Part shown: one piece after another, positions 8,364 through 44,329 of the stretch
Layout of the letters: each line of letters starts with the position of its first letter
Numbering within the stretch: the first letter of the stretch is position 1
Assembly (NCBI RefSeq): GCF_964204865.1
Contig: NC_135250.1
Span: 19,583,395 to 19,647,394, forward strand
DNA length: 64,000 nucleotides
DNA from: Styela clava
Taxonomy: Eukaryota; Chordata; Ascidiacea; Stolidobranchia; Styelidae
Reading direction: 5' to 3'
Notes under the pieces: generated by a model
The model's input: the letters and a program-made list of their open reading frames with translations, nothing else
Told to the model about the DNA's origin: nothing
The model's database searches: none
Made by a program: the position numbers and the translations under genes

Positions 8364-10194
8364 TAGACAGAGATTGAACTGTTAGTAATATTCCACTTTT
8401 TTCCTGAAATTGATTGAAATTAGAGATTTCCCACAAAATAGAGGAACGCTTCACGATTGTGCGTGCCATCCTTGCCCAGGGGCCATGCTAATCTTCTGTG
8501 TATCGTTCCATTTTTTTCACACGTACACTCGAAAGTAGTACACTCCACACACTCCCAGTGGTCGTATATGTACGTAGTAATTAGAAGTCAAATATCTATT
8601 ATGGTGGCTGTAATAGTAGTAGCAAAACGTTTCCTTCGAAATGACCATTGCTTGAAGGTATTTAATTTAAATACGATATGTCTGTTTAAGAGGAGAAACA
8701 AACCGTAATATATAATATTACCATTGATTGAAAGTTTATAACTTAGACTTACCACTCATCGATTCATACTTTTTAGACAAATATTCAAATTAACTGGTTT
8801 AATTTAACAGAGTTTGAACTGTTAGTAATATTCCACTTTTTTCCTGAAATTGAGTGAAATTAGAGATTTCCCACAAGAAAGAGGAGCGCTTCATGATCGT
8901 GCATGTCATCTTTGCGCAGGGGACATGCTAATTTTCTCTGTATCGCTCAATTTTTTTCATATGTACACTGGAAAGTAGTATACTCCACACACTCCGAGTG
9001 GTCGTATATGTACGCAGTAATTAGAATTCAAATATCTATTATGGTGGCTGTAATAGTAGTAGCAAAATGTTTCCACCGAAATTACCATTGGTTGAAGGTA
9101 TTTAATTTAAATACGATATGTCTGTTTAAGAGAAGAAACAAACCGTAATATATAATATTACCATTGATTGAAAGTTTATAACTTAGACTTACCACTCATC
9201 GATTCATACTTTTTAGACAAATATTCAAATTCACTGGTGTAATTAAACAGAGATTGAAATTTTAGTAATATTCCACTTTTTTCCTGAAATTGAGTGAAAT
9301 TAGAGATTTCCCACAAAATAGAGGAACGCTTCACGATTGTGCGTGCCATCCTTACCAAGGGGCCATTCTAATCTTCCATGTATCGTTCCATTTTTTTCAT
9401 AAGTACACTCGAAAGTAGTACACTCCACACACTCCCAGTGGTCGTATATGTACGTAGAAATTAGAAGTCAAATATCTATTATGGTGGCTGTGATAGTAGT
9501 AGAAAAATGTTTCCTCCGAAATTACCATTGGTTGAAGGTATTTAATTTAAATACGATATGTCTGTTTAAGAGGAGAAACAAACCGTTATATATGATATTA
9601 CCATCGATTGAAAGTTTATAACTTGGAATTTTCACTCATCGATTCATACTTTTTAGAGAAATAGTCAAATTAACTGGTTTAATTGAACAGAGATTAAACT
9701 GTTAGTAGTATTCCACATTTTTCGTAAAATTTATTAAAATTAGAGATTTCCCACAAAATAGAGAAACGCTTTACGATTGTGCGTGTCATCCTTGCGCAGG
9801 GGCCATGCTAATCTTCTCTGCATCGTTCCAATTTTTTAATATGTACACTCGAAAGTAGTACACTACACACACTCCCAGTGGTCGTATATGTACGTAGTAA
9901 TTAGAAGTCAAATATCTAATATGGTGGCTGTAATAGTAGTAGCAAAATATTTCCTCCGAAATGACCATTGGTTTAAGGTATTTAATTTAAATACGATATG
10001 TCTGTTTAAAAGGAGAAACAAACCGTTATATATGATATTACCATCGATTGAAAGTTTATAACTTGGAATTTCCACTCATCGATTCATACTTTTTAGACAA
10101 ATAGTCAAATTAACTGGTTTAATTGAACAGAGATTGAACTGTTAGTAATATTCCACTTTTTTCCTGAAATTGAGTGAAATTAGAGATTTCCCAC

Positions 10195-10303
10195 AAAAAA
10201 GAGGAACGCTTCACGATTGTGCGTGTCATCCTTGCGCAGGGGACATGCTAATCTTCTCTGTATCGCTCAAATTTTTTCATATGTACACTCGATAGTATTA
10301 CAC
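10195..10303 (-). ncRNA. U6: U6-like snRNA, ACAGAGA-type divergent copy
   Basis: ACAGAGA and the AGC triad are intact. Other positions differ: TTTGAGCGATACAGAG before the box, CATGTCCCC after the triad, and a changed 5' hairpin (aatactatcgag on the minus strand). A T run follows GCGTTCCTC. It may be a pseudogene or a weakly functional variant; similar sequences occur at about 8881, 10637, 12396 and 17245. Confidence 0.6.
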
Positions 10304-11516
10304 TCCACACACTCCCAGTGGTCGTATATGTACGTAGTAATTAGAAGTCAAATATCTATTATGGTGGCTGTAATAGTAGTAGCAAAATGTTTCCTCCGAA
10401 ATGACCATTCGTTGAAGGTATTTTATTTAAATACGATATGTCTGTTTAAGAGGAGAAACAAACCGTTATATATGATATTACCATCGATTGAAAGTTTATA
10501 ACTTGGAATTTCCACTCATCAATTCATACTTTTTAGACAAATAGTCAAATTAACTGGTTTAATGGAACAGAGATTGAACTGTTAGTAATATTCCACTTTT
10601 TTCCTGAATTTGAGTGAAATTAGAGATTTCCCACAAAAAAGAGGAACGCTTCACGATCGTGCGTGTCATCCTTGCGCAGGGGACATGCTAATCTTCTCTG
10701 TATCGCTCAAATTTTTTCATATGTATACTCGATAGTAGTACACTCCACACACTCCCAGTGGTCGTATATGTACGTAGTAATTAGAAGTCAAATATCTATT
10801 ATGGTGGCTGTAATAGTAGTAGCAAAATGTTTCCTCCGAAATGACCATTCGTTGAAGGTATTTTATTTAAATACGATATGTCTGTTTAAGAGGAGAAACA
10901 AATCGGTATATATGATATTACCATCGATTGAAAGTTTATAATTTGGGCTTTTTTCTCATCAATTCATACTTTTTAGACAAATAGTCAAATTCACTGATGT
11001 AATTAAACAGAGATTGAACTGTTAGTAATATTCCACTTTTTTCCTGAAATTGATTGAAATTAGAGATTTCCCACAAAATAGAGAAACGCTTCACGATTGT
11101 GCGTGTCATCCTTGCCCAGGGGCCATGCTAATCTTCTGTGTATCGTTCCATTTTTTTCATACGTACACTCGAAAGTAGTACACTCCACACACTCCCAGTG
11201 GTCGTATATGTACGTAGTAATTAGAAGTCAAATATCTATTATGGTGGCTGTAATAGTAGTAGCAAAACGTTTCCTTCGAAATGACCATTGGTTGAAGGTA
11301 TTTAATTTAAATACGATATGTCTGTTTAGGAGGAGAAGCAAAAACCGGTATATATGATATTACCGTCGATTGAAAGTTTATAACTTGGGATTTTTACTCA
11401 TCGATTCATACTTTTTAGACAAATAGTTAAATTCACCTGTGTAATTAAACAGAGATTGAACTGTTAGTAATATTCCACTTTTTTCCTGAAATTGAGTGAA
11501 ATTAAAGATTTCCCAC

Positions 11517-11566
11517 AAAACAGAGGAACGCTTCACGATTGTGCGTGTCATCCTTGCGCAGGGGCC

Positions 11567-11597
<31 letters not shown>

Positions 11598-11625
11598 CTC
11601 ATATGTACACTCGAAAGTAGTACAC
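11517..11625 (-). ncRNA. U6: U6 spliceosomal snRNA, canonical copy
   Basis: U6 snRNA is the catalytic RNA of the spliceosome. This copy reads, 5' to 3' on the minus strand, a stem-loop with a UUCG loop, then TTGGAACGATACAGAGAAG (ACAGAGA box intact), GATTAGCATGG (AGC triad intact), CCCCTGCGCAAGGATGACAC (internal stem-loop intact), a 3' arm ending GCGTTCC, and a T4 terminator. The length of 109 bases is close to the 107 of vertebrate U6. One base differs in the A-rich linker after the 5' stem-loop. A TATA-like element lies about 22-26 bases upstream. Confidence 0.9.
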
Positions 11626-11955
11626 TCCACACACTCCCAGTGGTCGTATATGTATGTAGTAATTAGAAGTCAAATATCTATTATGGTGGCTGTAATAGTA
11701 GTAGCCAAATGTTTCCTCCGAAATTACCATTGGTTGAAGGTATTTAATTTAAATACGATATGTCTTTTTAAGAGGAGAAACAAACCGTTATATATGATAT
11801 TACCATCGATTGAAATTTTATACTTGGAATTTTCACTCATCGATTCATACTTTTTAGAGAAATAGTCAAATTAACTGGTTTAATTGAACAGAGATTGAAC
11901 TGTTAGTAATATTCCACTTATTTCGTAAAATTTATTAAAATTAGAGATTTCCCAC

Positions 11956-12005
11956 AAAATAGAGGAACGCTTCACGATTGTGCGTGTCATCCCTGCGCAG
12001 GGGCC

Positions 12006-12036
<31 letters not shown>

Positions 12037-42694: not shown

Positions 42695-42744
42695 AAAACA
42701 GAGGAACGCTTCAGGATTGTGCGTGTCATCCTTGCGCAGGGGCC

Positions 42745-42775
<31 letters not shown>

Positions 42776-42803
42776 TTCACATGTACACTCGAAAGTAGTA
42801 CAC
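42695..42803 (-). ncRNA. U6: U6 snRNA, ACAGAGA-type copy
   Basis: ACAGAGA, AGC triad and GCGCAAGGATGACAC are intact. Differences from canonical copies are a CAATCCTGAAGC 3' arm (usual CAATCGTGAAGC) and a change just after the 5' hairpin (catgtg for catatg). The T4 terminator is present. Confidence 0.8.
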
Positions 42804-43574
42804 TACACACACTCCCAGTGGTCGTATATGTACGTAGTAATTAGAAGTCAAATATCTATTATGGTGGCTGTAATAGTAGTTGCAAAATAATTCCTCCGAA
42901 ATGACCCTTGGTTGAAGGTATTTAATTTAAATACGATATGTCTGTTTAAGAGGAGAAACAAACCGTTATATATGATATTACCATCGATTGAAAGTTTATA
43001 ACTTGGAATTTTCACTCATCGATTAATACTTTTTAGACAAATAGTCAAATTAACTGGTTTAATTGAACAGAGATTGAACTGTTAGTAATATTCCACTTTT
43101 TTCCTGAAATTGAGTGAAATTAGAGATTTCCCACAAAACAGAGGAACGCTTCAGGATTGTGCGTGTCATCCTTGCGCATGGGCCATGCTAATCCTCTCTG
43201 TATCGCTCCAATTTTTTCATATGTACACTCGAAAGTAGTACACTCCACACACTCCCAGAGGTCGTATATGTACGTAGTAATTAGAAGTCAAATATCCATT
43301 ATGGTGGCTGTAATAGTAGTAGCAAAATGTTTTCTCAGAAATGACCATTGGTTAAAGGTATTCAATTTAAATACGATATGTCTGTTTAAGAGGAGAAACA
43401 AATCGGTATATATGATATTACCATCGATTGAAAGTTTATAATTTGGGCTTTTTTCTCATCAATTCATACTTTTTAGACAAATAGTCAAATTCACTGGTGT
43501 AATTAAACAGAGATTGAACTGTTAGTAATATTCCACTTTTTTCCTGAAATTGAGTGAAATTAGAGATTTCCCAC

Positions 43575-43683
43575 AAAACAGAGGAACGCTTCACGATTGT
43601 GCGTGTCATCCTTGCGCAGGGGCCATGCTAATCTTCTCTGTATCGCTCCAATTTTTTCATATGTACATTCGAAAGTAGAACAC
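43575..43683 (-). ncRNA. U6: U6 snRNA, ACAGAGA-type copy with GGAGCG upstream of the box
   Basis: ACAGAGA, AGC triad and internal stem-loop are intact. The bases before the box read TTGGAGCGATACAGAG rather than TTGGAACGATACAGAG. The hairpin has changes at both arms (acattcg and agaacac on the plus strand), which weakens it. It is one of the last units before the array edge. Confidence 0.7.
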
Positions 43684-44014
43684 TCCACACACTCCCAGTG
43701 GTCGTGTATGTACGTAGTAATTAGAAGTCAAATATCTGTTATGGTGGCTGTAATAGTAGTAGCAAAATGTTTCCTCCGAAATTACCATTGGTTGAAGGTA
43801 TTTAATTTAAATACGATATGTCTGTTTAAGAGGAGAAACAAACCGTTATATATGATATTACCATCGATTGAAAGTTTATCACTTGGAATTTTCTCTCATC
43901 GATTCCTAATTTTTAGACAAATAGTCAAATTCACTGGTGTAATTAAACAGAGATTGAACTGTTAGTAATATTCCACTTTTTTCCTGAAATTGAGTGAAAT
44001 TAGAGATTTCCCAC

Positions 44015-44123
44015 AAAACAGAGGAATGCTTCACGATTGTTCGTGTCATCCTTGCGCAGGGGCCATGCTAATCTTCTCTGTATCGCTCCAATTTTTTCAT
44101 ATGTACATTCGAAAGTAGTACAC
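44015..44123 (-). ncRNA. U6: U6 snRNA, ACAGAGA-type, last complete unit of the array
   Basis: Core boxes are intact, with the same GGAGCG variant as the preceding unit. The 3' part reads CGAACAATCGTGAAGCATTCC, with a change in the terminal arm. Its upstream region is complete (TATA-like element and palindrome), and the array ends about 200 bases further on. Confidence 0.7.
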
Positions 44124-44329
44124 TCCACACACTCCCAGAGGTCGTGTATGTACGTAGTAATTAGAAGTCAAATATCTATTATGGTGGCTGTGATAGTAGT
44201 AGCAAAATGTTTCCTCCGAAATTACCATTGGTTGAAGGTATTTAATTTAAATACGATATGTCTGTTTAAGATGAGAAACAAACCGTTATATATGATATTA
44301 ACATCGATTGAAAGTTTATAACTTAGACC

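Follow-up and report, generated by a model that had tools for sequence, protein, structure and literature searches.

How does an essential gene stay in working order when it lies in DNA that behaves like a satellite? This question is raised by a locus of the ascidian Styela clava where genes for the U6 small nuclear RNA (snRNA) are repeated in tandem in one orientation. The catalytic core features of this RNA are ACAGAGA, AGC and the internal stem-loop with U74, and its genes are marked by a TATA box in addition to the proximal sequence element (PSE). We analyzed a stretch of 64 kb, hereafter the window (C1:19583395-19647394, in an assembly of 376.6 Mb and 379 contigs, named here C1, C3 and so on); positions given without a contig are those of the window. 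With a probability of about 0.7, we read this locus as the end of a 352-copy array of RNA polymerase III (Pol III) U6 genes that would undergo satellite-like turnover and of which a minority would be working copies.

Extent and organization of the array

An earlier note on this DNA had described about 82 minus-strand U6 homologues in some 36 kb, within a 439-bp repeat at 8364..44329. A search of the window with the covariance model RF00026 (cmscan) confirmed the copies: 82 matches, all of them on the minus strand and covering model positions 1-105, lie from 8435 to 44121 with scores of 76.2-106.4 bits (gathering score, 44; worst E, 1.5e-17). They are the only above-threshold U6 sequences in the 64 kb, and no other RNA family reached the threshold in the Rfam search of the window. 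The tandem repeat itself spans 8362-44328 with a period of 440, close to the limits and unit length first proposed, except that 8364 is not the start of the array. Antisense frames of ~94 codons, which had also been mentioned, are present on the plus strand of the repeat, mostly with TTG starts. According to the covariance search and the repeat period, the element at 8362..44328 (minus strand) is the right-hand block of the U6 array, made of 82 units of ~440 bp with one U6 copy each. The modal spacing of the U6 copies is 440 bp, and that of the window units is mostly 436-442 bp, the exceptions being 443, 445, 446, 497 and two of 364. The 82 copies represent 59 distinct sequences; the best canonical one (14157..14263, minus strand, 106.4 bits) equals the array consensus, and the copy at 17685-17791 is identical to it in sequence.

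The window does not hold the entire array, a possibility that is ruled out by 270 more copies leftward. When 150 kb to the left of the window were added and searched with a profile of the window copies (E up to 1e-5), the whole array amounted to 352 U6 copies over 168.7 kb (C1:19458839-19627515), 270 of them in a left block outside the window and 82 in the right block within it; no U6 copy was found by the profile search in the 25 kb further left of the array start. All 352 copies are on the minus strand; the units are head to tail, in a single orientation and homogenised, as in a tandem snRNA gene array under concerted evolution. The array is split by a 51-bp satellite that extends over 13.4 kb and of which the right part occupies positions 1..8364 (no strand assigned). 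A 43-mer of this satellite has 71132 exact matches in the genome (37798 forward and 33334 reverse), and it is a major satellite of the genome. The mean difference between units is 7.3% in the left block, 7.5% in the right block and 8.2% between blocks, the first and last values being computed on subsamples of pairs. Four spacings of the left block are shortened to 112-283 bp (at C1:19468628, 19497940, 19501374 and 19522848), and one of 1407 bp occurs near the left end of the array, at C1:19461968.

Promoter elements and integrity of the copies

Upstream of U6, the array unit carries a PSE core, CCACCATAA, at -66..-58 and a TATA-like sequence, ACATATACG, at -30..-22; for the copy at 14157-14263 these elements are located at 14321..14329 and 14285..14293, respectively, both on the minus strand. 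With the T-run at the end of the gene, the unit has, on sequence features, the layout of a type-3 Pol III gene. An exact CCACCATAA or CCACCACAA is found in 79/82 window copies, CATATA in 75/82 and TTTT at the end in 73/82, so that the TATA and T-run that the earlier note had assigned to every unit are present in most of them. Over the whole array, CCACCATAA occurs at -66 in 273/352 copies, the TATA sequence in 329/352 and the run of four T (T4) in 327/352. The motif [CT]CACCA[TC]AA was present at -58 to -60 in 14/14 U4 and U2 loci, namely ten U4 (nine on C4 and one on C10) and four U2 (three on C10 and one on C3); since these loci were taken as the best-scoring, many of them are related and nine come from one C4 cluster, they are not 14 independent cases. 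The shared motif is very likely the PSE of this genome.

The RNA-coding part of the units is preserved to a lesser degree than the proposal of some 82 U6 genes had implied. We defined the canonical core as the 45 nt of positions 38-82, in a numbering that we take to equal that of human U6. This core is intact in 12/82 window copies versus 107/270 copies of the left block (Fisher P 1.6e-5, uncorrected for the relatedness of neighbours), which makes 119 copies of the array when counted on the raw sequence, or 120 when counted on the gap-trimmed alignment; 33 copies carry one identical canonical U6 sequence. In the window, intact 45-nt cores are found on the minus strand at 11517..11623, 16803..16909, 17685..17791, 18567..18673, 28975..29081, 33825..33931, 35148..35254, 36028..36134, 39987..40093, 42695..42801 and 43575..43681. 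The ACAGAGA box is canonical in 28/82 window copies and in 213/270 left-block copies in the alignment, and one left-block copy is devoid of any box region. The other boxes of the window are ACACAGA (17), ACAGAAA (16), ACAGGGA (13), ACTGAGA (5) and three singletons; there are thus four recurrent types, each with one change of the box, at positions 43, 44, 45 and 46. Core, PSE, TATA and T4 are all intact in 9/82 window copies, 65/270 left-block copies and 74/352 of the total (counted on the gap-trimmed alignment, with its 120 intact cores), and 162/352 units have PSE, TATA and T4 intact and a core that is not.

Possible constraint on the U6 copies and their promoters

Upstream of U6, the G and C sites of the unit are about twice as variable as the A and T sites, therefore sites were matched by base in the diversity tests. 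Raw values of diversity in the window are 0.087 for U6, 0.077 for the spacer and 0.049 for the promoter. Relative to base-matched upstream sites, diversity over the 352 copies is reduced in the PSE (ratio 0.40, P 0.016), the TATA sequence (0.29, P 0.009), the 5' hairpin (0.43, P 0.016) and the core (0.63, P 0.017), and it is raised at U6 positions 20-37 (ratio 1.69). For U6 as a whole, the ratio in the left block is 0.72 (P 0.018). In the left block, T-runs are also intact more often in canonical copies than in the remaining ones (one of 14 comparisons; circular-shift fraction 0.012).

A number of results weigh against our reading of the locus as a gene array with working copies. The ACAGAGA box is not conserved over the 352 copies (ratio 1.15, P 0.66), and the U6 sequences of the window block are as variable as base-matched upstream sites (ratio 1.00, P 0.50). 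When alleles per site are counted, the signal is weaker (PSE, P 0.075; TATA, 0.038; hairpin, 0.150; core, 0.099), and by block the values are uneven, P being 0.058 in the left and 0.001 in the right block for the PSE, and 0.001 and 0.273, respectively, for TATA; moreover, these tests were made on non-independent sites and without correction. In the right block canonical and other copies do not differ in their T-runs (fraction 0.271), and the TATA boxes of the canonical copies are worse (fraction 0.991); a better PSE was looked for in canonical copies and no difference from the others was found. The idea that canonical copies have better promoters was discarded, given the equal PSE and the worse TATA in the right block, and so was the idea that all copies are constrained U6 genes, given the base-matched ratio of 1.00 in the window and a raw U6 diversity that exceeds that of the spacer. 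To us, the diversity values indicate weak constraint in the left block; for the U6 sequences of the window block no constraint could be demonstrated.

The folding of the RNA was also considered. The 5' end of the array consensus is predicted to form a hairpin with a UUCG cap and a single bulge (-4.6 kcal/mol; 13/200 shuffles as stable); that of the dispersed gene compared with it below has the same fold (-7.1 kcal/mol; 4/200 shuffles as stable), and that of U6 type D of the window folds differently from the array consensus. Among 210 distinct copies, the fraction of pairs kept and its value in shuffles are 0.960 and 0.952 for the 5' hairpin, 0.911 and 0.907 for the 3' stem, and 0.969 and 0.960 for the internal stem-loop. 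At pair 36-96 both sides are changed in 10/210 distinct copies, the shuffles giving for the stem a mean of 4.3 and a maximum of 9. A strongly visible selection on RNA pairing was rejected as a description of these data, because pairs are kept only slightly above shuffles and related sequences can yield the same result.

Higher-order repeats

Units that are nearly identical recur at fixed distances. In the window, 14/77 pairs at lag 5 and 0/81 at lag 1 differ by less than 2%; with a limit of 1.5%, the right block has 13/77 such pairs at lag 5 and 0/81 at lag 1, and the left block 27/265 at lag 5, 28/261 at lag 9 and 3/269 at lag 1. The U6 types of the window follow the order D-C-(E, B or canonical)-..., a higher-order repeat of 4-5 units, in which C comes directly after D in 12/14 cases (shuffle mean 2.6, maximum 8). 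The clearest example, D-C-E-B-B, D-C-E-B-B, D-C-E-B, is at 22967..28639 (minus strand), with starts at 22967, 25091 and 27215, 2124 bp apart. In the window, the correlation between upstream sequence and U6 type is only weak (rho 0.11), which suggests that exchange also takes place within units.

Such turnover is usually explained by unequal exchange and conversion, and we infer that they operate here. Unequal exchange would duplicate units singly and in blocks, giving near-identical units at lags 4-5 and in the left block also at 9; the duplication of blocks would spread variants in the form of higher-order repeats, and copies in which the catalytic boxes are damaged would accumulate, chiefly in the end block beyond the satellite.

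Dispersed U6 genes

Exact canonical cores number 121 in the assembly, the 119 of the array and two in dispersed U6 genes at C4:24212211 (plus strand) and C4:24519378 (minus strand). Outside the array U6 was located by the exact core only, and genome-wide covariance scoring covered 48 of 37341 candidates. The array consensus copy (window 14157) equals the first C4 gene at 104/107 positions, the differences being at 6, 8 and 13; U8C together with A13G preserves a pair, A6G converts an A-U pair to G-U, and the fold of the hairpin is unchanged. The flanks of these two sequences match at shuffle level both upstream and downstream. An identity of 104/107 between flanks that far apart implies that selection or conversion acted on the lineage well after the copies had separated, and so the array and dispersed kinds would both have been maintained by either process for longer than flanks remain alignable.

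The two C4 genes differ from each other at position 107 alone; the second has TTT at 104-106 followed by C at position 107, with ten T in a row a few bases on. The two share an identity of 0.89 over -70..-1 and of 0.99 over the gene, and are at shuffle level further upstream and downstream. Both carry CCACCACAA and TATATATT at the places of the array PSE and TATA, and no other sequence matches the first 52 nt of the dispersed type with 2 mismatches or fewer.

Other snRNA clusters and flanking DNA

The numbers for other snRNAs are lower bounds, given that 42, 46 and 42 candidates were scored for U1, U2 and U4, respectively. On C6 (17529476-17788488) there is a U2 array with spacings that are mostly multiples of ~1169 bp and which includes 39 of the 46 scored candidates, with scores of 140.8-153.6 bits; four other scored U2 on C10 and C3 reach 171-179 bits, and three more have 134-136. 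U4 is clustered at C4:20092264-20161924, on the plus strand among the matches listed, and at C10:7360266-7434107, on mixed strands. U1 lies mainly at C5:2501946-4664346, on both strands over ~2.2 Mb, among the scored candidates. On the basis of these candidates, large snRNA clusters seem to be a common trait of the genome, and the U6 array is accordingly less of an exception.

The earlier note had understated the size of the array (352 copies in all). An ordinary gene does lie next to it: a CRIP-like LIM gene of four exons, with borders read by eye, about 1.2 kb from the array at approximately 45569-48446 (minus strand). The second exon has matches among cysteine-rich proteins of solved structure (best E 3.8e-8), and LIM was the sole Pfam family above the cut-off when the right flank was read through stops; POLQ_helical gave 14.4 bits in this flank, below the cut-off of 27. 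Right beside the array end, the stretch 44340-45120 carries GCGGGCCAC motifs in a single orientation close to each of its ends, and we take it to resemble a hAT-type element. Elsewhere, a glycoside hydrolase 6 (GH6) stretch was detected on C9 (35.4 bits, cut-off 27), in keeping with the presence of GH6 in tunicates. A genome search for COX1 gave 0 matches among 2 scored candidates, an outcome of little weight. A 16-base Ciona spliced leader, in the form that we assume for it, had 2 matches versus 1 in the reversed control, which gives it no support.

Discussion

The U6 array is real, larger than it had been described, and of a known kind. Its behaviour is in part that of a gene family and in part that of satellite DNA, since many of its copies look intact and most are altered at parts of U6 that are normally invariant. 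Judged by its sequence, the array is probably transcribed and its canonical copies may be functional; in this case, the roughly one third of the copies with a canonical core, 74 of them with every checked feature, would supply U6 together with the two dispersed genes.

The array could instead be a dead satellite derived from U6, with the two C4 genes supplying all U6 and the preserved boxes reflecting nothing but recent amplification. The lack of conservation of the ACAGAGA box, the 70/82 window copies without an intact core and the interruption of the array by a genome-wide satellite fit this explanation, as does the fact that the similarity between the C4 genes is limited to -70..-1 and the gene body, which is the mark of selected genes. 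It is harder to reconcile with an array consensus that equals one dispersed gene at 104/107 sites between flanks at shuffle level, with 33 identical canonical copies, and with the lower diversity that all copies together show at the PSE, TATA, 5' hairpin and core, and we consider it improbable. Another explanation assigns a role to the variants: the types with a changed ACAGAGA box would be retained because they alter the choice of 5' splice sites or because non-productive copies buffer the dosage of U6. Four recurrent types with single changes at four different positions of the box, and 162/352 units that keep PSE, TATA and T4 without an intact core, speak for it; the box is, however, about as variable as base-matched upstream sites, so that block duplication alone should yield recurrent types, and this explanation is very unlikely. 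At least as far-fetched is the specific proposal that box-variant U6 from units with intact promoters is transcribed and alters 5' splice-site choice or competes with normal U6; if true, this would be a eukaryote running on a mixture of U6 catalytic boxes.

A gene array with a minority of working copies, the reading that we prefer, could be refined by a two-tier supply of U6, in which the array would serve the germline or egg and the dispersed pair the body cells. Tandem U6 genes exist in Xenopus tropicalis, which resembles the present case in its tandemly repeated U6 units, and human alpha satellite offers a likeness in its ordered multi-unit repeats homogenised as blocks, with the difference that the unit here contains a gene with its promoter. 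In zebrafish, maternal-specific U1 and U6 genes are present in large numbers on chromosome 4R (PMC11075544), and they appear to be the nearest precedent, with many U6 copies in one satellite-rich chromosome region; the S. clava array is a strand-uniform one of 440-bp units with higher-order repeats and mostly altered cores, the comparison being one of overall arrangement and not of unit structure. A two-tier supply would agree with this precedent, with the three 5'-hairpin positions that separate the array consensus from the dispersed genes, with the restriction of the dispersed type to the two C4 genes, and with U2, where four dispersed copies outscore the 39 scored copies of the C6 array. 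The hairpin difference may nevertheless be drift, and the three other scored U2 outside C6 (two on C16 and one on C10) have the low scores of 134-136 bits; such a division of labour, which does not exclude the preferred reading, is a tentative and rather doubtful addition to it. The three hairpin bases would tell array-type from dispersed U6 in small-RNA data.

Other genomes offer partial likenesses. In morabine grasshoppers, U snRNA genes, U6 included, are among the genomic tandem repeat families (PMC7754599); the portion of these data that was accessible is read-based and lacks the anatomy of a U6 array, which is here assembled. The tunicate Didemnum vexillum has a U6 family of 83 loci (PMC5006418), a likewise high copy number, and in the accessible portion of that study no U6 tandem array is mentioned, unlike the situation in S. 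clava. A literature search in which subscription papers were poorly covered returned no U6 array with both higher-order repeats and box-variant copies, which is weak evidence of novelty.

What distinguishes this locus is its size of 352 copies, its higher-order repeats and the 162/352 promoter-bearing copies without an intact core. Because an array assembled from end to end and its dispersed paralogues are available in one genome, S. clava may show how an essential gene stays working in satellite-like DNA, and the array makes it possible to ask whether U6 copies that have a promoter but an altered ACAGAGA box are tolerated by cells.

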